A DNA stretch of 31,564 nucleotides from a virus. The first letter of the stretch is position 1, and every line of letters begins with the position of its first letter. The stretch covers positions 1 to 31,564 of the IMG/VR virus record IMGVR_UViG_3300042544_000573; one strand, written 5' to 3'. A model generated the notes under the pieces. It was given only the letters and a program-made list of their open reading frames with translations. It was not told the origin of the DNA and made no database searches. Below, one piece after another: positions 2,527-17,664 of the stretch. The position numbers were made by a program, and so were the translations under genes.

Positions 2527-2737
2527 GATACGGCAGTTCACCCTTCACGGGGTGGACTACTTCATCCAGTGGGAACACCTGTCGATCGGGGCGTCGTTCT
2601 TCCTACCCACCACGGCCACCAAAACCCAAGCCCATTACGCCCTGCGGCCGTACGCCCAATATCTGGGAATACAACTGCAGGTGCGCAACCGGTGTGAGTA
2701 CGGACGCTACGGCGTCCGCGTGTGGCGCGTTTACTGA
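2489..2737 (+). CDS. Small hypothetical protein after the primase-helicase
   Basis: I do not recognise this gene. It encodes roughly 82-95 residues rich in aromatic and basic amino acids, with a tail of alternating Arg, Tyr, Val and Trp. The start is unclear: ATG at 2450, ATG at 2474 and GTG at 2489 are all in frame and all overlap the end of the primase-helicase gene. I chose the GTG because GGGG lies about 10 nt before it and the overlap is smallest; the first residues overlapping the upstream gene look non-conserved in style. Its stop overlaps the stop of the convergent 2072-aa gene by 7 nt. A perfect 7-bp hairpin with a UACG loop lies in its last codons. An accessory role in replication is possible from position only. 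Confidence 0.55.
   Translation: MSTKQRSLPPRSEIRQFTLHGVDYFIQWEHLSIGASFFLPTTATKTQAHYALRPYAQYLGIQLQVRNRCEYGRYGVRVWRVY
2701..2718. terminator. Hairpin with UACG tetraloop at the convergent junction, possible terminator
   Basis: A perfect 7-bp inverted repeat (CGGACGC / GCGTCCG) encloses TACG, giving on the plus-strand RNA a cUACGg loop, one of the very stable UNCG tetraloops. It lies just before the overlapping stop codons of two convergent transcription units. No T-run follows on either strand, so a classical intrinsic terminator is not shown. It also codes for the last residues of the small plus-strand gene, so chance or coding constraint is possible. Confidence 0.4.
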
Positions 2738-5700
2738 CGGATCGAGGTCTTGGCCTCGCGCACCCAGCCGGTCAACTCGACTTCCATCTGCTTGATTTCC
2801 TTGAGTTCGGCTTCGCGCTCGGCAGCAGGCATATCCGCAGCAGCGTCTTTGCTGTTGAGGAACTTGCGATACGCCCGGGTGCGCTCAAGTTGCTCCAGCG
2901 TCGAGTTGATCGCCGACTCCATCATCAGCACGTCTGCGTTCTTCTCCGCATACTCGACGGCCCGGTCAAGGTCGGTCTTCATCAGTTCAGACAGCGTGGC
3001 GTTGGCGCGGCCAACCTTCTCCCGCTCGTCGTAGAACTCAGTCATGCGGCGTGTGCCCACGGGGTCGTACAGGTAGTTGCTCAGGAGCGCGTACTTGTGC
3101 AGGGGGCGGTCAACTCGCGTTGGGTTCAGCAGGCTGTCAGTCATGGCCACCAGCAATCCGGCAGTTGAACCGAAGTACCCGCTCAACGCGTTGTCCACCA
3201 AGATGGGCGAGATTTTGTCCACACCCACTACGTCACGGCTGAATGCAGAGATGGCGATGGCCAACTCCGATGTGTTCGATGCCCGGCGCATGCTGGGGTC
3301 CTGCTGCTTTTGATAGATGCCTTCCAGCTCGCGCCCTGTGAAGAACGAGTAGTTGGTCCATGCTTCCAACAAAGGTTTGGCAGCTTGCGGGATAGGCACC
3401 ACACGGCCGACGTACTGCTCGAAGATGTAGGACAAAGCTGTGCGGGTTGCCTCCCATGCCTCTTGCTCCTCTGGGGTGCCTTGGCGGCGCATGTACTCGA
3501 CGATGCGCTCGGGGACGACCTTGAACAGCGCGCCCAGTTCGGTTGGTACGCCGATCTTGAACCCGCCCGGCAGTATCCAGTTGCTGTCCCGAGTCCGCAG
3601 GTCCATCTCGTTGTACTCTTCGTCGTCATCCCCCTTGCCGAGTGCGTAAAACGTGCTCAGTGTCATGGCGATAGCCGCGCGGTTGTAGAACATGCGACGC
3701 GCTTGGGCCCGGCCCACTGAGGAGCTGGAGTCCTTGCCGGATGCGGCGCGGTACAGCACGTCCATACCTTGGATGTATGCGTTGAAAAACGGGATGGTGG
3801 TCACCATGGCACCGACAAAATCAGATGAGCCACGGCGGCGGAAGTTGATGAACTCTCGGGCCCGGGTCTGCGCCAGCAGTTGGTCTTTGGACTCGTTGAT
3901 GGTCTGGTCGTAGATGGCCTTGCGCACGGCCAAGTCAGACGCCCGGGTGATGCCCTCCAGCCGGTGCATGAGGGTCTCGAACTTACCGCGTGGGCGGTAG
4001 CCAAGGTCTTTGAGCAGTGACACTGCGGGTTTACCCTGCTGAAAGTCGAATTCACCCGTCAGGCCCAGAGCCTCCATCGCGCTTACAGTGGGGTGGCGGA
4101 TACCGCGCAGTTCGGCCAGCGCCAGCCCGCCGAAGTTAGAGAGCGTCATGCGCAGCAGTGCGCCGGGGTTCTTCACACCGGAGGTCATGATGGCCCGCTG
4201 CACGTCGTCTGTTACCTGCTTGAGCGCGAAGGGCGGCAGGATCGTCACCGACTTGCGCAGCACGTTGGACACTTGGCCCAGCACCTGCAGCCACTTGGCC
4301 TTGGGTGGGTTGAGTTCTTGGAACGCTGCCACATCGTAGCTGGACGGCAGGTCCCAGTACATGAGCTCGCCCTTGACGTATGCCTTGGCTGTGCGGTGCT
4401 TGGTGCCGGGCATGCGCGACGGCTTGCTGGTGTACCCTAAGTCCTCCAGACTGCGCAGGGTTTGCACCCGGGCATCGTTGGTCATGACTTGGCCGACCAT
4501 CCAGCCCATGGTGTTGAGGTAGTTCTCGAACACGTTGCCCACGGGCCGCGTGAAGGAGCCCTTGAGTTCAGGGTTCTTGGTCAGCATCAATGGGGAACGG
4601 CCAGTGGTCTTCTTGACTGCAGTGAAGCGCTCTGCGAAATCGTCAATGCGGTCGAACGGCACGTAGCCGATCACGGACTTCCACTCGTCGCCCTGCTCCT
4701 TGGACAGCCTGCCCACCTTCACCATCTGGTCGACCAGCGCGACACGGGGCTTGTCCATGGCAGCAGACATCTTTGCAAACGCTGGGTCTGCGTTGTACTC
4801 GGCCACCAGCAGCGCACGGTCTGAGTCTTTAATGTGTTTGGGGAAGTCAGGGTTGTCCTTGAGCACCTGCTCCAGACGGTAGGCTTCGATGACCCGGCTG
4901 GCGAACTGCTCGGCGCGCTCTTTGCTGCGGCCGGTGCGCTCGCCCCATGCGTAGATCATTGGGAACACATCGGTGGGCGCACTGCCGTCCTTGGCCTTGG
5001 TCACCTTGTATTGGCCTGTTTCCGCCTCCTTTTGCAAGGAGCCTTCTTGGAAGTACGCCAGCAGCAGCTTGGAGTAATCTTGCGCCTGACGGTACAGGCC
5101 CATGGGGTTGAGCTTGCCCATGCTGTCGCGCACAGCGCCGTTGAAATGCCCACTGAGTTTGTCCTCGACGGCAGCAGCAGAGTCGGCTACAGCCACGCGG
5201 AACTTGACCCCACGGCCCGGCTCGGCCGCGCTGCGCTCGCTGTCCTGCGCCCCTTTGAACATGCCCAGCACGCCGCGCTTGTCGTTTGGCGTCAGGTCGC
5301 CCATGCTGTCCACCACATCGTCTGCGGTGTAGGTTTTGGAAAACTCTTCCTTGCTCAACGTGCGGCTTTGACTTTCCACCGGGGTGAAATCTGCTGGGCC
5401 CATCTTGTTCAAAAAGTCTGCAACCGCTTTGTTTGGCGGGTACTTACGGCCGGTAACGAGCGCAACCAAATCCCGCATCTTCTGTGCCACCTTGGAGAAG
5501 AACTTCTCGGTGATGGTCAGCGGCTTTTCGTTGGTTGTAGCCCAGCGGGACACGTTGTCTGCAAACCACTCAGCATAGGAAGACCAATAGGAATTAAACC
5601 CGGGCATGTCGGCAGCGGCTTTTGCGCCCGCAGGGCCTTCCAGCAGTGCGTCTTGCGATGCCACGTCCTCTCGGTTACGCAGGGAGTTCATGAACTCCTT

Positions 5701-8700
5701 GACGTCCATCTTTTTGGTTTTCTCCAGCCAAGCTTTGTACTCTGCGTCGAGCGCCTGTCGAGTTGAAGCGTCCGCAAGACTTAGCAAGTGGTGCTCAATG
5801 ATGTGGCCCATCTCATGCGAAATGGTTTCCAGCGTATACGACTCACTGCGGTTAGGCCGAATGAACATGCCATACTGGCTGCGCTCGTCGTTGAGCGGGC
5901 GCACCGCTCCCTGCAGGTCACGGCTTCGGTACTTCTGCAGTGTTGGGAAGTCTTTGCCGTAAAGTTTGTATTTCTCCGCGCCAGCCGCTCCCTGCGTGTC
6001 AGTATCAATGTACATAAACACTTTGATGTTGCCCAACCCGAGGGACTGCATCAGATCGTTCAGGTACTGCACGTACTTGGCGTCGATAGACTCGCTACCA
6101 ATGACGCTTTTGCTTGTTCCAGTAAACGGGCCGTCAGGGTACTTGGCCGCGTTGGCGGCGTCGTCCGTTGCGGCTTTCCGGGCTTCTGCGCGAAGTTTGC
6201 GCTGCTGCTCCGCCGTGAGCACGCGCTCGTTGGTAATGGACTCAATCGGCGTAGTGACCATATACCCAGTACGATCCATGCCGTAGTACCGGGGCGTGTC
6301 CATACCGTCAAGCGCCCGCACCAGCGCCACTTCATCATCAACGTACACAACGGATTGGCTGCCGACTACCTTTTCGTCGGCCCACGAACGCTGGCGGGGC
6401 TCGGGCTTGGCTTCCACTGGTTCAGGCTTGACCTCTGCCTTTGGCGCAAGTTTTGCCTTTGGCTCCGCCTTAACTTTGGCCTCCTTGGTCACTTTCCCTT
6501 TGGCATCGAACAGCGCGCCTTGGGTGTCGGGAACATCACCTTCCTGCTCAATCTCCTCAAACAGCGCCGCCAGCTCACTGGTATCGCCTTCGTCTGCTTG
6601 CTCTTTGGCTTTTATGTATTCAGTGGCACGCTTGTCGTCAATCGGCTGCACCAGCATCTGCTTGCCGCGCTTCACTTCGCCAGTGCGTGCATCAACCCCA
6701 ATAGGCTCGAAGAACGCGGAGGGGATGGCGCGAGTAGGCTTGGCTTTGCCGGTGGGTTTTTCTTTTTCCGCAGGGATCGGCGCGGCGGGTGCTTGGCGTG
6801 GGCGGGTCCGGTCCAGCGCAGCAGTGAACATCGGCTCAAACCCGGGAGCGGCCAGCGCGTCCGTAAGAAACTCGTTGACGGCCTCATGCTCCACATGCGC
6901 AGGGTCGCGGCGAATACGGGCGACTCCATCCAGTGCCGACTCCAGTTGCGACTTAGTTTTTGCCTGCGACAGCGTAACTACAGCAGGGGACTGCTCGTAC
7001 GCTTTAGGCGCGTCTTCCTCGACTGAAACGGGCTTTGGTGGTTTTGCAGGAGTTACTGCAGCAGGCTCTGTTCTTTGAGGCGCAACTCTCGGTACAACAG
7101 GCCGTCCAGCAGGTACCAATCCGCGTCCGTCAGGTGTGACAGGTTCTCCGGTGGGTGCGGGTACTCCGGCTCCGGGTTCAGGTGCGACGGGGGCGGCAGG
7201 TTCACTAGGAACTCCCACGCTTGACTCACCAGCTCGGGGCTCATCTCGCTGCTCAACTGCAGGCGTCGGGGCAGGGGTCGGCTCACTAGGTTTCTCCTCA
7301 AACGGCGCTGGCTGAGGGGCCAGCAGCTCACGCAAAATCTTGGCTCGGGGGTTCTGGCCCTTGGTCAGCTCAGGCTGGCGTTTCACAAGCTGCTGCAGCT
7401 CAGGCACGGTCTTGCCCACCACATTCTGCTCGAACCATGGTTGCATGCCAACGCGTAAGGGAATGCCGATGTCTTGGACGTTCTGCATGGACAACTCACC
7501 CGGGCGGGCCGGGATTGTCAGGTCACGATTGGGCTCTCGGCCTTCTGGCACTGTGCGCAGCGGCAGTTTGTACTGCAGGGGAGCCTTCTCTTTGGTCGAG
7601 CGCAGCGTAGGCTCCGCGATATCCGCGCCGGGTTCGGCCGGTGGGGTGCCGAGGTCTTCGCCCGGGAACAACTCGCCCTGCGTGCGGGCCTTGACCTCAT
7701 CGGGCTGGGTCAGCAGATCAGGCGCTTCGGCCAGCGCCGGGAACTTCTTGCGGGTGGCGGCGTCTTCGGCGGCTGCAGCGGCAGTCAGCTCCTTCTCGGC
7801 ACGGATGCTCTCAATGTCGCTCTGCGTGTACAGCGCCATCTGCTCGGCCAGCTCGGCGACTCGGGCCTTGACCTCTGGGGTCTGGGGCTGCTGGCGCAGG
7901 CGCTCGCGCTCCGTGGCCATGTCGGCGTACTCGCGCTGAAAGTCGAGGCCAAGGTCTTGCTGCCCTTCGGGTACGGCCGTGGCCGCAGGGGGCTCGGCCG
8001 GTTCTTTAGCGCGAACCACGGGGTTACCGAACAGGTCCCGATCGGGCTCGGCGGGGGCGGCGCGCTCGTCCGGCGCAAGCAACTCGCCCTGAACGCCCGG
8101 GGCGGTAACCAAGGGGAGGCTGGGGGCTGCTGGCTGCTCTCCAGTGGGCGCAGGGGCTGCGCCGCGTGCACGTCGGCCGATCGCCAAGTCCATTAAACCC
8201 TGCACGATCGCACCGGTTGCGCCGCCGTAGGCAGCTTGTTCCCCCAGCCCCTCAATGAGCGCTTGCTCTGGCTTGTAGATGCCTTTGGCAATCATGTTCT
8301 GGGCCAAGCCCGATGCGACTTCCTGCGCGGCTTCTTCACCGCCCGCGACAAAGGCACGTTTGACGGCCTCCACCCCTGCAGCTTTGGACGCTGTGGGAAT
8401 ACGGGACAGAATACGGATGGGGGCAAATGCTTCCAGTGCGCCGGGGATAATACCCAAGGCTGTGGCTGTGCTTCGCTGGTCTCCAGTGGCTCCGGCTTCT
8501 TCTGCGCGTGTGCGAGACTCACCAGCGCCAGCACCAACACCCAGACCTACGGCCGCAGCGCGACCGGCCAAGCCAAAGGGGCCTGCAAGTAGGAATGGTG
8601 CGGTAGAGCCCACTGCCTCACTCAGCTTACGCGTGACCGAATCTTCGTATCCGGGTGCTGCGGCAAACGGTTCTTTGACAGCAGTGGCTACCGACTTGAT

Positions 8701-8949
8701 CTTCTCCCGGGCGGATTTCTCCATGTCCTCGGGCAGCAGCGCCGATGCACCTGTGGCAGCGCTTTCCAACAGATTGACTGCGCCGGGCACGAGGCCCTTG
8801 AACGCTTCTTTGACGTTGCCAAGCACCGTGGTTTGCGGGGCCCCAAGGTCGGGAAACTGTTGCCGGATGATGGCAGCAGCTTTGTCCTTTGATACGTCGT
8901 CTGGGAACTCTACGGTTCGGCCATCGGGCAAAGCTACTGTGTACGCCAT
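2731..8949 (-). CDS. Giant polyvalent virion protein with HEMGH metallopeptidase and LPD38-like domain
   Basis: This 2072-aa protein is the last gene of the late operon and probably an internal, ejected virion protein. Residues 1-35 form a short domain (YTVALPDGRTVEFPDD). About 50-260 is Ala/Gly-rich with hydrophobic stretches that could contact membranes. About 260-840 is Pro/Glu/Ala/Lys-rich linker. A zinc-metallopeptidase motif HEMGH is at 1045-1049, with a likely third ligand E1127 in YAEWFADN. About 1150-1700 is mostly helical. At about 1715-1870 FFNAYIQGMDVLYRA, then a D/E-rich turn and VPTELGALF, match what I remember of large polyvalent protein-associated domain LPD38. The C-terminus is charged and probably coiled. 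ATG at 8949 is preceded by GAGGT. By analogy with T7 gp16, an enzyme-bearing injected protein is plausible; this is inference. No internal frameshift is seen. Confidence 0.9.
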   Translation of the reverse strand: MAYTVALPDGRTVEFPDDVSKDKAAAIIRQQFPDLGAPQTTVLGNVKEAFKGLVPGAVNLLESAATGASALLPEDMEKSAREKIKSVATAVKEPFAAAPGYEDSVTRKLSEAVGSTAPFLLAGPFGLAGRAAAVGLGVGAGAGESRTRAEEAGATGDQRSTATALGIIPGALEAFAPIRILSRIPTASKAAGVEAVKRAFVAGGEEAAQEVASGLAQNMIAKGIYKPEQALIEGLGEQAAYGGATGAIVQGLMDLAIGRRARGAAPAPTGEQPAAPSLPLVTAPGVQGELLAPDERAAPAEPDRDLFGNPVVRAKEPAEPPAATAVPEGQQDLGLDFQREYADMATERERLRQQPQTPEVKARVAELAEQMALYTQSDIESIRAEKELTAAAAAEDAATRKKFPALAEAPDLLTQPDEVKARTQGELFPGEDLGTPPAEPGADIAEPTLRSTKEKAPLQYKLPLRTVPEGREPNRDLTIPARPGELSMQNVQDIGIPLRVGMQPWFEQNVVGKTVPELQQLVKRQPELTKGQNPRAKILRELLAPQPAPFEEKPSEPTPAPTPAVEQRDEPRAGESSVGVPSEPAAPVAPEPGAGVPAPTGEPVTPDGRGLVPAGRPVVPRVAPQRTEPAAVTPAKPPKPVSVEEDAPKAYEQSPAVVTLSQAKTKSQLESALDGVARIRRDPAHVEHEAVNEFLTDALAAPGFEPMFTAALDRTRPRQAPAAPIPAEKEKPTGKAKPTRAIPSAFFEPIGVDARTGEVKRGKQMLVQPIDDKRATEYIKAKEQADEGDTSELAALFEEIEQEGDVPDTQGALFDAKGKVTKEAKVKAEPKAKLAPKAEVKPEPVEAKPEPRQRSWADEKVVGSQSVVYVDDEVALVRALDGMDTPRYYGMDRTGYMVTTPIESITNERVLTAEQQRKLRAEARKAATDDAANAAKYPDGPFTGTSKSVIGSESIDAKYVQYLNDLMQSLGLGNIKVFMYIDTDTQGAAGAEKYKLYGKDFPTLQKYRSRDLQGAVRPLNDERSQYGMFIRPNRSESYTLETISHEMGHIIEHHLLSLADASTRQALDAEYKAWLEKTKKMDVKEFMNSLRNREDVASQDALLEGPAGAKAAADMPGFNSYWSSYAEWFADNVSRWATTNEKPLTITEKFFSKVAQKMRDLVALVTGRKYPPNKAVADFLNKMGPADFTPVESQSRTLSKEEFSKTYTADDVVDSMGDLTPNDKRGVLGMFKGAQDSERSAAEPGRGVKFRVAVADSAAAVEDKLSGHFNGAVRDSMGKLNPMGLYRQAQDYSKLLLAYFQEGSLQKEAETGQYKVTKAKDGSAPTDVFPMIYAWGERTGRSKERAEQFASRVIEAYRLEQVLKDNPDFPKHIKDSDRALLVAEYNADPAFAKMSAAMDKPRVALVDQMVKVGRLSKEQGDEWKSVIGYVPFDRIDDFAERFTAVKKTTGRSPLMLTKNPELKGSFTRPVGNVFENYLNTMGWMVGQVMTNDARVQTLRSLEDLGYTSKPSRMPGTKHRTAKAYVKGELMYWDLPSSYDVAAFQELNPPKAKWLQVLGQVSNVLRKSVTILPPFALKQVTDDVQRAIMTSGVKNPGALLRMTLSNFGGLALAELRGIRHPTVSAMEALGLTGEFDFQQGKPAVSLLKDLGYRPRGKFETLMHRLEGITRASDLAVRKAIYDQTINESKDQLLAQTRAREFINFRRRGSSDFVGAMVTTIPFFNAYIQGMDVLYRAASGKDSSSSVGRAQARRMFYNRAAIAMTLSTFYALGKGDDDEEYNEMDLRTRDSNWILPGGFKIGVPTELGALFKVVPERIVEYMRRQGTPEEQEAWEATRTALSYIFEQYVGRVVPIPQAAKPLLEAWTNYSFFTGRELEGIYQKQQDPSMRRASNTSELAIAISAFSRDVVGVDKISPILVDNALSGYFGSTAGLLVAMTDSLLNPTRVDRPLHKYALLSNYLYDPVGTRRMTEFYDEREKVGRANATLSELMKTDLDRAVEYAEKNADVLMMESAINSTLEQLERTRAYRKFLNSKDAAADMPAAEREAELKEIKQMEVELTGWVREAKTSIRQ

Positions 8950-8957
8950 CTGCTACC

Positions 8958-10820
8958 TCATTCAATTTTCCCCGTGGCGGGGTTGTATTTAAGACTGGTT
9001 CCGCCGGGGCCTGCTGCGCCGGGGGCTGGTAGCATTGTATCCAGTCCAGCCATTTTGGTAATCGCAGCCTCTACTGCACCCAGCTTGGTCTGCAGCGCAG
9101 CGCGCTCAGCCTTGTTGAACGTGGTCTTCATCTGGTTGGTGTACTGCGTCTGCAGGGCTTTCAACTCAGCCAACTGCTGTTTGTCGGCCCCACCACCCGC
9201 GCCACTCGTCCGGGCAGCCGCACCGATATTGGCCACCCTGATGTCTTTCACCATCTCCTCGCGGCGCAGCTCTGCCTGCTGCTTGAGCTCCAGCAGCTTG
9301 AGCGTTTCTTGCTGGGCCATCTTGCGGGTTTCCGTTTCGTTATTGCTAACTTGCTTGGCGGCTTCGTACTGGGCTTTGAAGATTTGGTCGAACTCTTTCT
9401 CGCCAACACCATACAGCTCTTTGGCGTATGCCCGAGCGCCGTCAATCTTGCCTTGCTCCTGCTCAATGATTTTGGTGCCAAGGTCAAAGCGTTTCTGGGC
9501 GCGCTGCTCCTCTAAGCCGCGCACGCCACGCGCACCGGTAGCGCCAGCTTGGAACGAAGACATGCCATTGGGCGCGGCCGAGATTTGCCCGAGGTACTCC
9601 ATGAGTTGCCCCCATTGATCCTTTGGACCGGACTGGCGATCTCGCTCTCCCTGCAACTGCTTGATCATTGCATCGCGCTGCGTGGTGTCTGGAGCGCCAA
9701 CTCGGGACCCGTACATCATCTCCTTGTTAGCAGCAGCAACTTGCGGGTCTTGCATCATGCGCTCGGCCAGAATTCGATCTGCGTCTGACTGAGGTGGTGG
9801 CATAGCGCTAGAAACTGCAACGGGTGGTGCTGCCTCTTCAACAGGTGGGCGGGTTACCTCTTGCCGCTTTTGAGCGGCAGCCAACGCCTTTAGGTCGGCC
9901 ACTGGTTTCGGTGCGGGTGGAGCGCTGCGTACTGCTGCATCGGCCGCGTTGATTGCAGCACGGTTCTCCGCTGCGGTTCGGCCCGTCGTGGCAACTTCGT
10001 TTTTGGCATCCCGAGCGCGCGCTACATCCGTAAACGGCGTCATGCTTTCTGGGTCGGCCCCTTCTGGTGTCAGCTTTGGCGACAAGTAAGCGGCGTTTAC
10101 GCCCGCAGCGCGCATTGGGCGGACAACTGCAGTGTCATACGCGCCGACCAGCCCCCTTGGCACCATGGTTGCAACGTCAGCAATGGCGCGGCCAGCCGAT
10201 TCGCTACCGCCGCGCAGCGTCTCCAGCAACTTAGCAATGGCTGAGCGGTCTGCCGCTGCCTGCGCGTCAAGCGGCTTGTCCGGCTCGCGCTTCTTACGCT
10301 CCGCTGCCTCGCGGTTTTCGCGGTTCATCCGGTCGTAAGGCGTTTCGTATTCTTCGCCCTCGTCGCCACCTTTTTTGAACGCAATGATGCCGCCCTCGGC
10401 CATATCAAAATTCACAGGCAGCTCGTCAATGCCTTGCGCGCCGGGCTGGGCTTCGGCAAACTGCGTCCCTTCTGGGACGGGGCCCGGGCCAGCTTGCTGC
10501 ATCAGCGCTTGAAGACCTTGCTGTTGCTGCTGGGCCTGCAGGGCCTGAGCCTCCATCTTCTGGCGCGCTTGCTCCTGCACGGATTCCATGACGGTGGGGG
10601 GCTTGCCTTGCGGGCCTTGCATCTGGGCGAGTTGGCTCAGGGCCTGCTGCTTGGCCATGGCATCTTTTTCGTTCGTGACGATGTTTAACGCCATAAGCTT
10701 TTGCAGGTCAGGAGGCAGCCCGGGCTTGCCCTGCTGTTCTTGTTGAATACGCTGCTGGAGCGGTGCGGGGTTCCCACGGAACAGTGAGGCAATGCCTTGA
10801 GCGCTGGGTTGTTGGGCCAT
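8958..10820 (-). CDS. Gln-rich coiled-coil virion structural protein
   Basis: This 620-aa protein carries no recognisable enzyme domain. About 20-115 is very rich in Gln, Ala and Met (QEQQ, QAQQQQQ). M140-AEGGIIAFKKGG-152 is a GG-containing motif of a kind that recurs in several proteins of this window. About 160-350 is charged and proline-rich. About 380-600 is predicted helical and coiled (Glu/Lys/Gln/Ala), and the end is Gly/Pro-rich (APGAAGPGG). ATG at 10820 follows AAGGA with 7 nt spacing and lies 9 nt after the previous stop. The gene sits between the 865-aa protein and the giant peptidase protein, so an internal or ejection role is plausible. The precise function is unknown. Confidence 0.82.
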   Translation of the reverse strand: MAQQPSAQGIASLFRGNPAPLQQRIQQEQQGKPGLPPDLQKLMALNIVTNEKDAMAKQQALSQLAQMQGPQGKPPTVMESVQEQARQKMEAQALQAQQQQQGLQALMQQAGPGPVPEGTQFAEAQPGAQGIDELPVNFDMAEGGIIAFKKGGDEGEEYETPYDRMNRENREAAERKKREPDKPLDAQAAADRSAIAKLLETLRGGSESAGRAIADVATMVPRGLVGAYDTAVVRPMRAAGVNAAYLSPKLTPEGADPESMTPFTDVARARDAKNEVATTGRTAAENRAAINAADAAVRSAPPAPKPVADLKALAAAQKRQEVTRPPVEEAAPPVAVSSAMPPPQSDADRILAERMMQDPQVAAANKEMMYGSRVGAPDTTQRDAMIKQLQGERDRQSGPKDQWGQLMEYLGQISAAPNGMSSFQAGATGARGVRGLEEQRAQKRFDLGTKIIEQEQGKIDGARAYAKELYGVGEKEFDQIFKAQYEAAKQVSNNETETRKMAQQETLKLLELKQQAELRREEMVKDIRVANIGAAARTSGAGGGADKQQLAELKALQTQYTNQMKTTFNKAERAALQTKLGAVEAAITKMAGLDTMLPAPGAAGPGGTSLKYNPATGKIE

Positions 10821-10829
10821 GATCTGTCC

Positions 10830-13427
10830 TTATTTCGTGGTCGCGGGCGTTTCGCCGAGCAAAATTCTCATTGCTTGGTCTGCGGTCAGTGTTCCATCAG
10901 AGAATTTCTGAAGAGCGCTACGAGCCGCTGCGCTGTACGACTGAGATTGCAGTGGCATACCAGACAACAGAGACTGCTCAAACTGCAGCATCTTGAACGG
11001 ATTCTCACGAGCCTCTTCAAACTGCTTCTTGTCCGCTGCGATGCCTTCGGACTCAATGCCGCGCTCGATGCCGCCCAGTGCTGTCAACTGGTTGAGCTGA
11101 GAAAGACCCAGATTGCCTTGACTTGTCAGAGCCTGCAACCGATTTGCATCCGCTGCGGAAGCCGCCGCGCTGTTGATCTGTGAAGCGGTAAGCGCAGCCG
11201 ACTGGTTTGAAGTGCTGGCCCTAAGCGCCAAATCTGCTGCCGTCTTGGCTTGGTCAGAGCTTTGGCCGTATCCAAATTGACCCGCCTGCTCTGTGGCTTT
11301 TTGCACATCAAGCGCCCGCAACTGGTCTGCATTGAACTGATCCATGGCCTTGTTGTAGGCGGTGTTGTACCCCGATGTCAGCAGCTCGTTTTGCTTACCC
11401 ATCAGGTTGCGACTGCCCTCAGCCTCCATGATGGCTTGACGGCTACCGCCAAAAGCCCCGGCCTTGGTTAACCGACCAGCGTCACCTATACGAGAAATCT
11501 CCGCCTGACGGCGAGCCTCCGCCAGTTGTGGATCAAGCGCAGACTTCAAGTACGGGTTCATGTACTGCTGGGCCTCAGCCGTACCAAATGTGCCGGTAGA
11601 AAACGTCCCGGGTTTATACGCTTCGGGCGCGACATACGTGGACGAAACATTTGACGCGTTGGCACCGCCACCACCTGTTGGCGCGTAATCTGCCAGACCA
11701 GACAGAGCGCTAGTAAGACCGGACGGCCTAGCGCCAGAAGCCATATCAAATGCTTGCGTCTGCAAACCCGAAGCGCCAGCAGTCAATGGGCCTGTGTATG
11801 CCTGATACGGCGCTTTCGCCAGCGCACTGCCCCGACCCATCAGGTCCGTAACGTATTCTCCTGCCCAGTTGGATAGGCTGGACTCAACGCCGGTAGTCCC
11901 CGCCGGAACCTTGGGAGTGGTAGTGGTTACTCCGCCTGCGTCATATCGCTGAACAGAGCCACCCGGCATGAACTTGTTGGGGTCAATCTGCTTGCCCTGC
12001 TCTGTGCTACCCGTCCGGGCTTGACGGATGCTGTCCATCATGGCGTAGAGCTTCTTGGCACCCTTTTCAGCGCTACCACCGCCAATACGCTTGACCATTG
12101 CAGGCGAGATAAATGCTTCGTCATTTGCCACACGAGCCTCCTGAGAGCCGTCAATCGTTGTGGGGATGGAGTCACTCATGCCATCACCGGCACCCTTGAT
12201 GGGCTTCGCCCCAAGGTTCTCTGCAAGCAGCTTTAAGCCAGCCTCGGAGCTACCATTGCCGTAGTGGCTGACCACATCGGCAGGAAGCACAAACCCGTTG
12301 CGCTCGAGCCCTTCCGCAATGCCACCCTTCGCAAACTTTGTTGCGTTGTAGCGACTTGTCACCACGTCCGGGCTGACATTCAAGGCTTCTGCTACTTGTT
12401 TTGGTGTTACAAGATTGGCGTCCATCGCAGTGGCAATAGTCTTGTCACTGGCACCTTTGTTGGTATTAAACCAGTTTGTAATATCCGCGCTTGCCACAGG
12501 CGGAGTCGCAGCGCCGGATCGAGCCAGATCAATCTCCGAGGCCAACTTGGGGTCTGCCGCACGGACTGATTTGACCGTATCCCCGAAAGTATCGAGCCCT
12601 TTATTCATCCAGTATTGGATGGCAGTTTCATCTGGAGTGAGAACTGCAAGGGGATTGTTTTTATAGGCATCAAGCACTTGCGCACGAGATGCGGACCCAG
12701 AAACGCTTGGAGTTTCGTAAGTTGCTTTTCTGCTAAACGGATTGGCCAGTGCTGCGGCGCGTAGATCGTCCAGCGTGCGTGCGTTGGACTGCACCACCTC
12801 GCCAGCAGCATTTTTAAACGTCACTCCGCCACCATAGTCAATGCCGCTCGAACCGGGACGACGGCCAACTTGGGGGTTGGTCAGCATCTGGCGCTCGGCG
12901 GTGTACTTTGGAATTGTGCCTTGATAGCCGGTTGCAATGCCCGCAGACCCACTGGGCCTTGTGGCCGAATAAAGACCAGCACCAACCGAGAGCAGCCGCT
13001 TCCAATCAACTTTACCGTCCTTGCCTTTAAACAAGTCCAGAAGTTGCTGGCCCCCCTTTTTAATAAAACCCATCAAACCGCTGTCGTCTCCGGCAAGGTT
13101 TCCCTTGCTGTCTACAAAACCGCCTTTTGTGGTGTCATACGTAAATTCGGTCCCCTTGGAATCTTTGAATGCCACATTGCCAGAGGCGTCAATCTTGTAA
13201 AAATTTCCCAATTCATCTTGCGTCCAACCTTGGCCAACTTCCGTGGGGTTGTCAAGTCCACCCGGTGTCAATGGGCTTGGGGTTGAGTCTCGCTCTGGAA
13301 TTTCAGCAGGAAGGTCGGTAGGAGGGGTAACTGGGTCCGAAGGTGGGTCAACAACAACGGGGGTTACCGGGGTCTCACTTTCGCCGTCATCGTACCAGTT
13401 TCCCAGTTCATCTTGTCGCATCGTCAT
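10830..13427 (-). CDS. Large virion structural protein with internal duplications
   Basis: This 865-aa protein is of a type I associate with phage structural regions but cannot name. QDELGN(W/F)Y occurs twice near the N-terminus, at 5-12 and 70-77, around a Pro/Thr/Val-rich linker. The middle carries KFAKGGI (364-370). A motif F(V/I).PA..V....G.GS.E.G.K.L then occurs at 379-400 and again at 439-460, exactly 60 residues apart, around GMSDSIPTTIDG. RYDAGGV follows at about 495. The C-terminal third (about 560-850) is Ala/Gln/Ser-rich and probably helical. ATG at 13427 is preceded by GAGGAG, and the previous gene's TGA ends one base before it. A tail-internal or ejection role is inferred from position. 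Confidence 0.83.
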   Translation of the reverse strand: MTMRQDELGNWYDDGESETPVTPVVVDPPSDPVTPPTDLPAEIPERDSTPSPLTPGGLDNPTEVGQGWTQDELGNFYKIDASGNVAFKDSKGTEFTYDTTKGGFVDSKGNLAGDDSGLMGFIKKGGQQLLDLFKGKDGKVDWKRLLSVGAGLYSATRPSGSAGIATGYQGTIPKYTAERQMLTNPQVGRRPGSSGIDYGGGVTFKNAAGEVVQSNARTLDDLRAAALANPFSRKATYETPSVSGSASRAQVLDAYKNNPLAVLTPDETAIQYWMNKGLDTFGDTVKSVRAADPKLASEIDLARSGAATPPVASADITNWFNTNKGASDKTIATAMDANLVTPKQVAEALNVSPDVVTSRYNATKFAKGGIAEGLERNGFVLPADVVSHYGNGSSEAGLKLLAENLGAKPIKGAGDGMSDSIPTTIDGSQEARVANDEAFISPAMVKRIGGGSAEKGAKKLYAMMDSIRQARTGSTEQGKQIDPNKFMPGGSVQRYDAGGVTTTTPKVPAGTTGVESSLSNWAGEYVTDLMGRGSALAKAPYQAYTGPLTAGASGLQTQAFDMASGARPSGLTSALSGLADYAPTGGGGANASNVSSTYVAPEAYKPGTFSTGTFGTAEAQQYMNPYLKSALDPQLAEARRQAEISRIGDAGRLTKAGAFGGSRQAIMEAEGSRNLMGKQNELLTSGYNTAYNKAMDQFNADQLRALDVQKATEQAGQFGYGQSSDQAKTAADLALRASTSNQSAALTASQINSAAASAADANRLQALTSQGNLGLSQLNQLTALGGIERGIESEGIAADKKQFEEARENPFKMLQFEQSLLSGMPLQSQSYSAAARSALQKFSDGTLTADQAMRILLGETPATTK
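12048..12293 (-). repeat. Two copies of a 22-residue motif inside the 865-aa protein
   Basis: Residues 379-400 and 439-460 share the pattern F(V/I).PA..V....G.GS.E.G.K.L with a 60-residue period. The conserved positions are hydrophobic and glycine, suggesting a duplicated small structural unit. This is seen at protein level; the DNA copies have diverged. Confidence 0.65.
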
Positions 13428-13428
13428 A

Positions 13429-14622
13429 TCAACTCCTCAGTAGCCGCGTAAGTTCGCGGTTCCGTGCATTAAGATCACCTGCTGAGGTCGCAAACAGGCC
13501 AGTTCCAAAAATATCGTTCATCAATTGTACGTCTGCGGCGTTCTTCTTGTCATCTTCCGACTCGGCTTCACTGCCCGGAGCACGAAGGACATTACCCGCA
13601 AGATACCTAAGAACGTCGTTGTTTGCGCTGCTGGCGTTTGTAGCAGGTTGAGATGGACCCCCGGCATTGACCCCAAAAAGGGAGTCAAGGTTGTCCCCGC
13701 CTGCCGAGGTAGAAGAATCAGTTGACGCGGTTGTAGAGCCTGTTGCCGACGATCCCGAGGACGATCCAACACCCAAAGCGCCGTCAATGGCTGCCGCCAA
13801 CGAAGAGGTGTTGGATTGCCCAGTGGGGGCCGCTCCGGTCGCCGAGTTAACTGCGCTAGATGTTGCTGACCCGATGGCTTGGCCAACACCCATTGCGGAC
13901 ATCCCAGAAGAAACCGTGCTTGCTGGAATTCCCGTTGCCTGAGAAATGGTTGAAGCCAGCGCAGCTACCACTGCCCCGGTTGTGGCGGCAGAAACGGCTT
14001 GCCCGGGGTTCCCGTTGACAATTCCAGAAACAACTCCAACAGGGATGCCAAGTGATGCGGCAACTTGGCCGATGGCTGCATTTGCAATGCTCTGGCCAAT
14101 GCTTGTTTGCCCAGACAGCATCCCCATAAGCCCTTGAGTCTGTGAAACCGCCAAGCCGAGCGTTGGGTTTATAAGTCCCAGTAGGGCGGGCAAGTTATTG
14201 GTCAAGGCGGTATTGGCATCCATCGCTGCCAGCGCCATATCAACCGTTTGAGTATCGGAAATACTCATACCCCCAAGGCCGTTTGCGGACAGCAAACCGA
14301 GCTCTGATTGAGTCATCCCGTTGGTGGCCACATTGGAGCCAGTCGCGTTCGACTGCGACATCATTGCCGCCTCAGTTGGGCTGATACCCAAAGCAGCGGC
14401 AATTTCCGAAAGCGATGTTACTGCGGGGTCAGATTCGGGAGTAGAAAAATCGGTGCTGGTAGAGCCCCCAGCGGGAGTCCCATTTCCCGTACCAGATGCG
14501 CCGGGTCCGGGGCCATCCCCAGTGGCAGACGAAGCAGCACCCGTACCACCGTCACCGCTATCCCCATCGCCATAACGGAATGGGCGACCCAAAAGCTTGG
14601 CCTTGTAGTACAGGATGTTCAT
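13429..14622 (-). CDS. Low-complexity Ala/Ser/Gly/Thr-rich virion protein
   Basis: This 397-aa protein has no recognised domain. After a short basic start (MNILYYKAKLLGRPFRYGD), residues 20-65 are Gly/Ser/Thr/Asp-rich and acidic. Residues about 75-250 alternate small and hydrophobic residues with loose repeats such as GIPVGVVSGIVNG and GIPASTVSSGMSAMG, which could form amphipathic, membrane-active helices. A Ser/Gly/Thr stretch follows at about 250-300, then a charged C-terminus. ATG at 14622 lies one base after the upstream stop, and its own TGA ends one base before the next ATG, so the three genes are probably translationally coupled. Its place among the presumed ejection proteins suggests a membrane-contacting role. 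That is inference, and the low complexity limits any homology claim. Confidence 0.75.
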   Translation of the reverse strand: MNILYYKAKLLGRPFRYGDGDSGDGGTGAASSATGDGPGPGASGTGNGTPAGGSTSTDFSTPESDPAVTSLSEIAAALGISPTEAAMMSQSNATGSNVATNGMTQSELGLLSANGLGGMSISDTQTVDMALAAMDANTALTNNLPALLGLINPTLGLAVSQTQGLMGMLSGQTSIGQSIANAAIGQVAASLGIPVGVVSGIVNGNPGQAVSAATTGAVVAALASTISQATGIPASTVSSGMSAMGVGQAIGSATSSAVNSATGAAPTGQSNTSSLAAAIDGALGVGSSSGSSATGSTTASTDSSTSAGGDNLDSLFGVNAGGPSQPATNASSANNDVLRYLAGNVLRAPGSEAESEDDKKNAADVQLMNDIFGTGLFATSAGDLNARNRELTRLLRS

Positions 14623-14881: not shown

Positions 14882-17065
14882 TCACCTCGCGCCATCAGGA
14901 CGCAAATCAAAGCGCGGAGCCCCAAGCTGCCAAGTTACGCCAAGGCCGGTGCTCTCCACCTTCATGGACATCTGCCGTGCGCGAACCCGGGTAAAAATCT
15001 GCCCCGTAAATTCTTCAATTGGCAGCACGGCTGTACGCGTGATCGGTCGGTTGTTTTCACCGCCAACCGATGGAGGGGTAGTGTATCCTGAACCCGCGTT
15101 CTTTAAAGGCTGCATGTACATCCGGGCCGTAGGAGCTGCGGCCTCTGACCCACGGAACGTAATGTCCGGCAGGACGCGCCAAAGGAACATGAATTTGTGC
15201 CCATCATCCAGATCAAATTCAGCGGAAGTGATTGTTGCCGTAATCGGGGTTGGCACGTCGGTTGTCTTGTCGTCCACACCAAACTCGTGGTTCACAATGT
15301 TATTGGAGTACGTAGCCGCTATCGGGTAATCGAGCAACCCAGAATCCAGCCATGCTGTGCGACCTAAACTGCCGTAGTACCAGATGTCTTCGGAGTAGTT
15401 GTAGATCGCGTACTTGTCAACCACAAGGGAACCAGTCGAGCAGTAAAACCACCAAACCTCATTAAAGCCTTCGTTGGTCCCAGCAAAAACTTGGGCGTAC
15501 TGGTCTTTGTTTAGGTCTGAAAAAATATACTGACGCAAGTCGCACCGCAAGGTTTGAACTCGACCGTCGTACTTATAGAACTTGTCCACACCCATCCAAT
15601 AGACGACGCCAGAAGCAACGGCGGCGGCATTTTGCCCAACGATTGATGTGTTGTCACCAAGCAGTGTCGCACCCCAAACGATTGGAGGGCCGAGATACTG
15701 AAGGGCGTACACCGCGTTATCCGTGAACACCACAATTTCTTGGCGGGACTGGATGGCAGAAACAATGCGCGAACCCCGCGATAACTGCAATCCTCCAGCT
15801 TGGTTTGTTGGCGATGGCGTCCAATCTGCTGCGTTCTCTTGATCGGACCAGCGGATTAGCATTGGATTTTGCGCGGAGAGGCCGACATCATTGCACCCAA
15901 ATGCCAACACAAAGCGGCTCACATCCGAAACCAGCAAGTAGTTCTGCACCGTAGGCGCATCTGATGCGCCGTTAAGAGCTGTCAAGCTAACCGCTCTGGT
16001 GCTAGTTCCCCCAGAGGAGGCCCAATAGTAAATGCCCCCACCCCGTGGCCCAAAAACCAAATCTTCGCCGAAGTTGAACTGACTCCACAGCCGAATAGTA
16101 TCCAGTGTCGTTGCGCCTACGCCCCAAGGGCCAGCGCCCCAAGAGCCAGCGCCCCAACCCAGCAGAGGTACGGCGAACTCGCCCCCAGTATTGATCTGAT
16201 ACGCAGCAGCCACCGTCCCGCCGCCGGGAGAACCTGATACGTCCGTTGCGTTGGCGGTTGCGGACGCAGTGATGGCGTACGAGTTTGCATTGAGGACTGT
16301 GAGTTGGTACTCGCGGTTAAGAACACCTGCCGTGATGTTGCCGCCAAGGCCCACGGCTCCGCTGAAAGTAACAAAGTCCCCCGTATTGCAGCCGTGCGCC
16401 GTATCCGCGACAGTGATGACGTTGGAGCCCAGTGTGGCACTGAAGGGGTTTGTCAGGACGAAATTGTACTTCGTGTATGTAGCTACCACAGCAGCCCCGC
16501 CACCGCCAGCCACCGTAGAAGTAGCTGCGGTAAACACGGTGATCGTGTAACTATCAACGCCAGTCACCGTAACCGTGTGATTGGTGTTTAGGACTTCTGG
16601 GGGGATACCGCCAACTGCTACGGCCCCAGAAAAATTGGCAACGTCCCCGGTGACTAGGCCGTGCGCGGTGTCGGCCACGACAATTACTGCCAAACCAGAG
16701 GTGGTGCTAAATGGATTGGTCAGCGTTACAGGTGCCTCGGTGTACGACCGCAAAGGGGTAATGTCGTAATAGGCACCACCGCGCTCAATGTAAAACTTCA
16801 GGTTTGTGCCAACACCAATAAGGTTTAGGCCATCAAGCGTCACCCAGTTCCACATAGACCGGCACACGCCCAAAAAGAAGTTTACGGAGATGCGCTCCCA
16901 GCCACCAATTTTTTCGGGAGACCCTGAGCGAAACCGAACCTTGTCGCAATCGTACCAGCCAGCCGAATACGCGCCGTTGATCCCGGCAGGTCCGACATTT
17001 TCCGACAGGTATCTGGTGTTTTCGCGACTTACGCCGGGTCTGAACAGGAGTTTTTTGAGTGGCAC
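14882..17065 (-). CDS. Large tail protein (hub/stabilisation-like) with two FCCH-like repeats
   Basis: This 727-aa protein begins LLFRPGVSRENTRY and WYDCDKVRFRSGSPEKIGGW, a style typical of large podovirus tail proteins often labelled stabilisation protein, P22 gp10-like. A duplicated domain lies at 116-196 and 205-289: TNPFS.T.G...I.VADTAHG..TGD...FSGAV, resembling the E1 FCCH-type repeat seen in phage tail proteins. A Gly/Trp repeat (WGAGSWGAGPWGVG) follows near 305-318. About 330-640 has a repeating W/Y/F and Gly pattern that suggests a beta-propeller or beta-rich body. The start is GTG at 17065 with GAGGT five bases upstream. Position after the lysis genes and before the internal proteins supports a tail tube or nozzle role. 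The exact homologue is not proven. Confidence 0.85.
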   Translation of the reverse strand: MPLKKLLFRPGVSRENTRYLSENVGPAGINGAYSAGWYDCDKVRFRSGSPEKIGGWERISVNFFLGVCRSMWNWVTLDGLNLIGVGTNLKFYIERGGAYYDITPLRSYTEAPVTLTNPFSTTSGLAVIVVADTAHGLVTGDVANFSGAVAVGGIPPEVLNTNHTVTVTGVDSYTITVFTAATSTVAGGGGAAVVATYTKYNFVLTNPFSATLGSNVITVADTAHGCNTGDFVTFSGAVGLGGNITAGVLNREYQLTVLNANSYAITASATANATDVSGSPGGGTVAAAYQINTGGEFAVPLLGWGAGSWGAGPWGVGATTLDTIRLWSQFNFGEDLVFGPRGGGIYYWASSGGTSTRAVSLTALNGASDAPTVQNYLLVSDVSRFVLAFGCNDVGLSAQNPMLIRWSDQENAADWTPSPTNQAGGLQLSRGSRIVSAIQSRQEIVVFTDNAVYALQYLGPPIVWGATLLGDNTSIVGQNAAAVASGVVYWMGVDKFYKYDGRVQTLRCDLRQYIFSDLNKDQYAQVFAGTNEGFNEVWWFYCSTGSLVVDKYAIYNYSEDIWYYGSLGRTAWLDSGLLDYPIAATYSNNIVNHEFGVDDKTTDVPTPITATITSAEFDLDDGHKFMFLWRVLPDITFRGSEAAAPTARMYMQPLKNAGSGYTTPPSVGGENNRPITRTAVLPIEEFTGQIFTRVRARQMSMKVESTGLGVTWQLGAPRFDLRPDGAR
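16121..16157 (-). repeat. 15-nt tandem repeat coding for WGAG units
   Basis: GCCCCAAGGGCCAGC is followed at once by GCCCCAAGAGCCAGC and a partial third copy. It encodes Trp-Gly repeats (WGVG, PWGAG, SWGAG) of the tail protein. A short perfect-phase repeat like this could change copy number by slippage without breaking the frame. Confidence 0.7.
16199..16720 (-). repeat. Tandem FCCH-like domain duplication in the tail protein
   Basis: Two segments of about 81-85 residues, encoded by 16720-16478 and 16453-16199, align over TNPFS, VADTAHG, TGD, FSGAV and VLN, and both end near a Gly-rich loop. The spacing between them is about 8 residues. This is read at the protein level. Confidence 0.75.
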
Positions 17066-17073
17066 GTTTTACC

Positions 17074-17664
17074 TCATGCGGTCAGTACGTTGAGGGCGGT
17101 GTTGATGTGCGCAACCCTGTCTGCAAGCCCTATTGTCCCACCATTTATTTTTTTCGTCATCCCCGTGAAGTCTTTGGCATCGGCTTCCTTGTTCAAGCCG
17201 CGCTTGTTCCAGTACCAAGCAGCCGTCAGGGCGGCATATTCTTTGGACAGAACCAGCTCGGGGTCGGCCACAAGGTCTACGCCCAAGGCGTCAGAGGCAA
17301 GGCGGTAGTTGTCCTTGCCAGTCAACTGGATCAGGCCACGGCCACGGTACTTCCAGCCATCGCCCTCGTCGGTGTTGCCCATCCGGCCAGAATATACCTT
17401 GTTGGCAATCTTCTCGGGGTTGCGGTGGAACGGCTGCGCAGCCTCCTCAGATGCAAAGCGGCTGGGCCAAGTGGCGTGCAAGCCCTTGGCGCTGTAGTTC
17501 AGATTCTCCTGCAAGGTCTTAAAGTTACCCGACTCGTGGGCACACTGGCCGATGAACGCCGCTTGGCGCTCAGGGGTGCTGATGTCAAAACGCTGAAATG
17601 CCGCCGTCAATGGCTCCAGCCAAGACGGGTCGATGTGCATTTCCTTGAGCTGGTCTTCTGTCAT
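17074..17664 (-). CDS. GH19-family endolysin
   Basis: This 196-aa enzyme probably cleaves the glycan strand of peptidoglycan at lysis. It matches the phage/bacterial glycoside hydrolase 19 (chitinase-like) fold. CAHESGNF places the catalytic Glu at E44, a second acidic residue E53 sits in QENLNYSA, and YRGRGLIQLTGKDNY (about 106-120) is the typical core motif. There is no signal peptide and no separate cell-wall binding domain. The length suits a single-domain enzyme, so export would need a holin. ATG at 17664 overlaps the holin stop as ATGA, which supports coupled expression of holin and endolysin. The family assignment is strong; bond specificity cannot be told from sequence. Confidence 0.95.
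   Translation of the reverse strand: MTEDQLKEMHIDPSWLEPLTAAFQRFDISTPERQAAFIGQCAHESGNFKTLQENLNYSAKGLHATWPSRFASEEAAQPFHRNPEKIANKVYSGRMGNTDEGDGWKYRGRGLIQLTGKDNYRLASDALGVDLVADPELVLSKEYAALTAAWYWNKRGLNKEADAKDFTGMTKKINGGTIGLADRVAHINTALNVLTA

Follow-up and report, generated by a model that had tools for sequence, protein, structure and literature searches.

The virus record IMGVR_UViG_3300042544_000573, a stretch of 31,564 bases that was analysed at its full length and is called the window here, carries on its minus strand a gene for a protein of 2072 amino acids (aa) in which a zincin-type metallopeptidase motif is set in an LPD38 protein. With a probability of roughly 0.7, we regard this protein as one that is carried in the virion and ejected, in which a conserved N part and a conserved C half with LPD38 flank a single exchangeable metallopeptidase cassette, and that acts after entry. 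Whole cassettes have been exchanged among three sequence families, each of them under purifying selection, and in this phage group some zincin has always been kept at the slot while its kind has often changed. Zincins in polyvalent proteins, their HEXXXH form and LPD38 are known from Iyer 2017 (PMC5512222), whose account of polyvalent proteins names zincin-like metallopeptidases (MPTases) as their commonest domain, so a peptidase in such a protein is not the surprise that the original prediction took it for; the new point is the exchangeable-cassette nature of the peptidase.

Cassette exchange at the peptidase slot

The whole gene, encoding an LPD38 polyvalent and putative ejection protein, occupies positions 2731 to 8949 as one open reading frame (ORF), as the original prediction had it; the strand, absent from that prediction, is minus, and transcription runs from 8949 to 2731. 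The cassette of the window protein, here called type A, covers aa 855-1210 (5320 to 6387), and the conserved C half, predicted to be mostly helical, covers aa 1205-2072 (2734 to 5337). A Pfam search places LPD38 (PF18857) at aa 1776-1945 (3115 to 3624) with an E value of 1.2e-25 and 91.1 bits against a cut-off of 27, in line with the LPD38-like end expected at 1700-1900. Within the cassette, HEMGH at aa 1045-1049 (5803 to 5817) provides two predicted metal-binding His and the predicted catalytic Glu, E1046, while YAEWFADN at aa 1125-1132 (5554 to 5577) contains E1127, the predicted third metal ligand; the translation confirmed the positions given earlier for both motifs.

A scan with an alignment of the C half yielded 75 loci, in 66 of which the ORF reaches the slot, the other nine being cut by a contig end. 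All 66 relatives, a number that includes near-identical copies, carry a zincin motif (HExxH or HExxxH) in the slot; loss of HExxH in related phages, named in the original prediction as a sign against a peptidase, was looked for, and none of them has lost the zincin motif. Their cassettes fall into family A (31), family B (26) and family C (9), which means that 35 of 66 carry another family than the window does, and clustering by BLAST with the window included gave 32, 26 and 9 members and no member outside these three clusters. Family A shows HE[LIM]GH together with EWFA, family B HELLH or HELIH in 24 cases and HEAVH and HEVIH in one each, and family C HEVGAH, the catalytic Glu being invariant in 51/51, 19/19 and 9/9 aligned rows, respectively. 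When the families were compared as profiles, A and B aligned over their shared right flank only (27 columns) and A and C not at all (0.5%); B and C reached 96.9%, which is weak evidence of kinship because the right flank, common to both, is part of the alignment.

Parsimony on a quick tree of 58 of the 67 C halves, nine having been dropped as identical over their last 500 residues, requires 17 changes of family, compared with a mean of 24.6 for shuffled labels and none of 200 shuffles as low. If only the well supported branches are counted, 12 changes are forced for A, 8 for B and 7 for C when each is set against the other two; of the tree's 55 inner branches 16 are open, and long end branches occur in five rows. 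The borders of the exchange are visible in pairs of close relatives: the DNA of L068 (family A) and L067 (family B) is 95.6% identical up to aa 782, has no match over aa 783-1160, a cassette of about 378 aa, and is then 96.7% identical over 9.4 kb, and for L020 (A) and L022 (B) an identity of 94.3% is followed by a gap at 785-1143 and then by 96.0%. Within families, the ratio of nonsynonymous to synonymous substitution rates (dN/dS) was at most 0.133 in 13 pairs, with medians of 0.086 for A (7 pairs), 0.073 for B (5) and 0.083 for C (1); these values are rough, the pairs being 80 to 98.5% identical, sharing members and in many cases having dS above 1.

Nine columns are invariant in 51 aligned type A cassettes, namely H1045, E1046, G1048, H1049, Y1121 and E1127 to A1130 (H190, E191, G193, H194, Y266, E272, W273, F274 and A275 in the numbering of the alignment). 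A scan of viral sequences for the cassette itself used the patterns K[YF]PDGPF and [FY][ADG]EWFAD, so that the conservation of EWFAD is partly by construction and that of HExxH is not; HExGH was kept in 43/43 of the loci found in this way, and both motifs were kept in all 31 type A relatives found via the C half. With the amino-acid composition of 15 distant relatives, chance would produce about 0.03 HExxH or HExxxH in 2000 aa; since H1045, E1046, H1049 and E1127 are invariant in the 51 cassettes and every slot-bearing relative has the motif, it is more than a chance occurrence. Of the 43 type A loci, 22 had no BLAST match to the C half (four of these are open at the 3' end), from which it follows that the type A cassette also resides in other giant proteins, and it was matched by only two of 50,697 phage records, a Microcystis phage and a Vibrio phage.

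A fixed slot with exchanged peptidase families was not described among the matches listed in a literature search that had supplements and subscription journals outside its range. The relevant passages of PMC5512222, PMC8472413 and PMC7824862 describe no cassette exchange, and those of the first, Iyer 2017, report no swapping of one kind of MPTase for another at a fixed slot of near-identical proteins.

Predicted fold and relatives of the protein

The AlphaFold model of aa 856-1210 has a mean predicted local distance difference test (pLDDT) of 83 and a predicted template modelling score (pTM) of 0.81. It places HExGH in a helix at 181-199 and E272, which corresponds to E1127, in a separate helix at 270-284, so that the structure prediction called for earlier returned a zincin-like arrangement, with HExxH on one helix and a Glu ligand on a later one. 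Comparison with VIA-align gave lethal factor, Certhrax and edema factor as the highest rows (Z 7.9 to 6.4), mostly over the N-terminal domain. In these toxins the N-terminal domain has the fold but lacks the active site. Three lethal factor rows extend to the catalytic end (400-776, 399-776 and 578-773, with Z 7.8, 7.8 and 6.4), and further rows were Pro-Pro endopeptidases (Z 6.1-6.7), YbeY-type proteins (6.4 and 5.2) and Wss1 (4.8). Among viral models, Foldseek found other large polyvalent-type proteins, with a best E value of 1.1e-10. On the basis of this model a zincin fold is probable for the cassette, with metal binding and catalysis as predicted properties.

Peptidase families of Pfam and NCBIfam gave nothing over the cut-off, with Peptidase_M78 (E 0.083) and SprT-like (0.15) both below it, and PADLOC reported no defence family over its cut-off for the 2072-aa protein. 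Against the PDB, the sequence of the whole protein had no match, the family A profile only rows at chance level (E 0.11 to 1.4), and the profiles of family C and of the C half no match. The MPTases of Iyer 2017 (PMC5512222) resemble family A in that giant phage proteins bearing LPD domains combine HExxH with a Glu on a later helix, and the HEXXXH form described there is the motif form of our family C; family A, which may be one of the 12 clades of that paper, differs in passing no peptidase cut-off of these libraries.

Family B provides the link to an internal virion protein of known structure. Its profile matches PDB chain 9sfn_G, a solved structure named "internal virion protein", at 317-571 with an E value of 3.5e-37. 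This chain is gp37 of phage LUZ19, as a 300-aa piece of gp37 is identical to it, and the gp37 gene sits between those of internal virion proteins and tail fibres; literature searches for a paper on 9SFN and for LUZ19 with cryo-electron microscopy and internal virion protein found none. The HExxH of LUZ19 gp37 is HEAVH and begins at aa 423, which makes E424 its predicted catalytic Glu. In many records of phiKMV-like phages gp37 bears the name "internal virion protein with endolysin domain", a label that may denote the zincin or another part. Combined into a profile, LUZ19 gp37 and two relatives in turn match the tetrameric ejection protein gp48 of phage phiM1 (8vb2_A), including a weaker first stretch (E 0.0066) in which phiM1 has LLHEAAHAKT at the aligned place, with the His at about residue 385. 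Residues 268-528 of the phiM1 protein are called an endolysin/exotransglycosidase-like domain by its authors (PMC11440229); read from motif and alignment, our comparison suggests that this domain is a zincin, a reading not found among the literature matches listed. LUZ19 gp37 and phiM1 gp48, which are counterparts of T7 gp16, share with the window protein the order of N part, zincin and helical core. LUZ19 gp37 differs in that the window's own family A is unmatched by profile (1.1%), as is the C half (0.7%); on the latter value, kinship of the C half with T7 gp16 could not be demonstrated by sequence.

A second match of family B is to phrog_2206, the family of virion RNA polymerases, in a part beyond the polymerase (E 4.9e-13 and 1.2e-14). 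For N4, a structure preprint places an HExxH motif in the C1 domain of this polymerase, 2124-2375 (PMC12633501). The N4-type virion RNA polymerase, a giant ejected protein with an HExxH domain, resembles in this the window protein, which is probably ejected too; the window protein differs in that it showed no RNA polymerase domain and that family A was unmatched over the domain. The DarB-like LPD38 proteins, such as JC1 gp69 and that of VvAW1, are likewise giant proteins with LPD38 close to their C-terminal end, at 4195-4401 in JC1 gp69, from which 51 unique peptides were recovered from purified virions (PMC9144972), whereas Pfam found no methylase or helicase domain in the window protein.

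The C-half profile matches LPD38 proteins of two pelagiphages (99.6%) and of two Bacillus pageviruses (99.5%). In Lederberg and HTVC034P, the genes for tail tubular proteins A and B, an acetyltransferase, an internal virion protein, a protein of 580-590 aa, the LPD38 protein and a tail fibre follow one another, which is the order of T7 genes 11 to 17. The two pelagiphage relatives thus stand in the place of the T7 gp16 gene, while the window gene is the last of its late run and has a tail-fibre-like gene upstream. In a low-confidence model, the first half of the C half aligned with T7 gp16 at Z 6.2 (186 residues) and with the phiM1 protein at Z 5.8 (208 residues), values equalled or exceeded by unrelated helical rows.

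Among 15 distant LPD38 phage proteins, chosen as representatives of 40 records, nine have an HExxH or HExxxH that precedes the C-half match by 315-616 aa, and six, all of them short (504-1678 aa), carry neither; the idea that every LPD38 half requires a zincin was dropped. Given these proteins without a motif, the peptidase appears to be an addition to the LPD38 core and not part of it, although it is constant in the near group. In HTVC010P the annotation seems to divide the LPD38 protein into several ORFs, its C part being a 504-aa ORF of its own.

Possible roles after entry

Since family B matches LUZ19 gp37 and N4-type virion RNA polymerases, the pelagiphage relatives stand in the T7 gp16 place and JC1 gp69 is found in virions, we infer by analogy that the window protein is present in the virion and ejected. 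The chain would pass into the cell in threaded form, together with the DNA or before it, and the cassette would refold inside and then cut a protein, an activity needed for entry or early infection, the specificity of which would be free to change or driven to do so. A motif that persists through every exchange of its carrier argues for the cutting of something, with a specificity that possibly changes. The most likely target, tentatively and at a little under even odds, is a host protein met on entry, as this fits both the exchange of cassettes and the insertions of ADP-ribosyltransferase (ART)-like stretches beside them. Host envelope proteins or the phage's internal proteins, proposed as substrates in the original prediction, would be candidates only. 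Such ART-PolyVal-like stretches are inserted at the junction after the peptidase in four loci (L016, its copy L017, L039 and L082) and adjoin cassettes of all three families; of the three that were scanned (L016, L039 and L082), two pass the ART-PolyVal cut-off and L082 fails with 27.4 bits against 31.2. An additional insert at the junction, L022:4862-5494, has no Pfam or PHROGs match at E 0.01. A stricter form of the host-target idea, which we consider possible although rather doubtful, is a dedicated peptidase bay that must hold a metallopeptidase while its occupant is swapped by recombination, so that the entering virus would change which host protein is destroyed at the very start of infection. 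This could be likened to polymorphic toxins exchanging their tips, the swaps here being between near-identical phages.

The next likeliest target, though a somewhat less probable one than a host protein, is the phage's own protein chain within the flexible junction that adjoins the cassette (aa about 1200-1215, with an F-S motif), where a cut during or after ejection would free the LPD38 half from the N part. The junction (aa 1200-1219, KEEFSKTYTADDVVDSMGDL, 5293 to 5352) is the right border of the exchange unit and a candidate processing site, the first 38 residues of the C half have low confidence in the model, and autoprocessing was proposed besides host targets for the MPTases of polyvalent proteins (Iyer 2017, PMC5512222). 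At this place F[SAQ]x is present in 47 of 53 proteins, with all three families represented, compared with 315 of 2032 windows of 55 aa (15.5%) from the same whole proteins, in a count that dropped 5 of 58 proteins without an anchor, used a motif defined after the sequences had been viewed and rests on related proteins that are not independent. The motif may, however, merely mark the start of the C domain, and the remaining six proteins do without it; self-processing would also require peptidases of different build to share one conserved flank as substrate, unless a cleavage site came with each of them. According to Iyer 2017 (PMC5512222), the virion RNA polymerase of N4, a member of the family that B matches, is packaged in unprocessed form, which speaks against cutting before packaging. 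It is improbable, in our view, that the fold serves without catalysis and is kept for packing or for controlled unfolding in the ejectosome, cutting nothing. This would agree with the short LPD38 proteins that manage without a zincin motif, with the N4 C-terminal region containing C1, which inhibits the polymerase (PMC12633501), and with ArdC of plasmid R388, whose metalloprotease domain is of the polyvalent type and whose E229A mutant conjugated like wild type (PMC7213743), so that such active sites can be dispensable; ArdC differs from the window protein in belonging to a conjugative element and in having a single-stranded-DNA-binding domain, its catalysis being dispensable in the published test. 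A purely structural zincin would have no need for the catalytic Glu, yet this residue is invariant in all three families.

The frequent exchange could also be neutral mosaicism, the cassette being one more shuffled phage segment whose exchange has no functional message. The first 40 or so residues and stretches upstream of the gene also differ in near-identical pairs, and family C is as scattered on the tree as shuffled labels (194 of 500 shuffles as low); we nevertheless think this unlikely, as the slot holds a zincin in 66/66 relatives, never another enzyme class and never nothing, and as the cassettes are under purifying selection. Least probable by far is an enzyme of cell-wall entry that would open the cross-links of peptidoglycan and so stand in for the transglycosylase of T7 gp16. 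Neither the window protein nor its three neighbours showed a recognisable lysozyme or transglycosylase domain, and the homologous phiM1 domain was taken for endolysin-like, but LUZ19 gp36, encoded beside gp37, is annotated with a lysozyme motif and a lysozyme-like domain lies in a partner protein of phiM1 (PMC11440229), which means that the zincin is not needed for opening the wall in those phages.

Several observations weigh against a virion-borne, ejected peptidase with an exchangeable cassette. The phage is known only as a contig, and there is no sequence match (0.7%) between its C half and the gp16 proteins of the phiKMV type, represented by LUZ19 gp37 and two relatives. The model of the C half is poor (pLDDT 61.8). 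For the cassette, the best Z of 7.9 falls in the range below 8 that can be reached by chance, with top rows that are mostly non-catalytic N domains, and Foldseek against the PDB found nothing at E ≤ 0.001, the best E value being 0.094. The six distant LPD38 proteins without a motif, the functional ArdC mutant and the possible neutrality of the exchange belong on the same side.

Gene neighbourhood and meaning for phage entry

The conserved N part, delimited by identity profiles, covers aa 1-640 (7030 to 8949), with aa 1-40 and parts of 430-500 varying among relatives. The first 40 or so residues (8830 to 8949) diverge strongly between some relatives whose identity is 85-100% beyond about residue 50, and form a second variable end. 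Hydrophobic N-terminal segments had been claimed: two Ala/Gly-rich stretches are indeed present at aa 119-138 and 163-182 (8404 to 8595 for aa 119-182), their hydrophobicity being moderate only, at a Kyte-Doolittle value of about 1.4. The long linker is Ala/Pro/Glu-rich, as aa 266-930 (665 residues) hold 94 Ala, 85 Pro and 73 Glu; a low-complexity segment of Ala, Glu, Lys and Pro at aa 641-854 (6388 to 7029) lies within the variable stretch that separates the conserved parts.

Upstream on the minus strand follow genes for proteins of 620 aa (8958 to 10820), 865 aa (10830 to 13427) and 397 aa (13429 to 14622), none with a confident family match and all candidate ejection partners by position only, and, as a marker of late-gene context, a 727-aa virion structural protein (14882 to 17065; phrog_3287, E 1.9e-66). 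The tail-fibre-like gene lies within the same late run, and a GH19-type endolysin is encoded in the middle of it at 17074-17664. The run terminates at the 2072-aa gene, which bears out its placement at the end of a late operon. On the other side of the gene stands a DUF927 primase/helicase-like ORF (19-2526), the longest on the plus strand, which is open at the window's end. A giant phage protein that combines a predicted enzyme domain with an LPD domain near virion genes has the architecture of polyvalent proteins. A search for the P22-type portal matched in 0/11 records and its control matched in E. coli; that for the T7-type portal, also 0/11, is uninformative, as its control matched nowhere. 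Bacterial genomes scanned with the C-half alignment held no relative, hence gave no clue to a host or prophage.

The role of metallopeptidase domains in delivered phage proteins was left open in the account of Iyer 2017 (PMC5512222). The exchange of cassettes among near-identical phages would mean that the activity matters more than its kind, unlike in ordinary structural parts. Through its link to LUZ19 gp37, phiM1 gp48 and the N4-type virion RNA polymerases, family B brings this question to cultured phages with solved structures, and the same link suggests that the endolysin-like domain of phiM1 may be a metallopeptidase.

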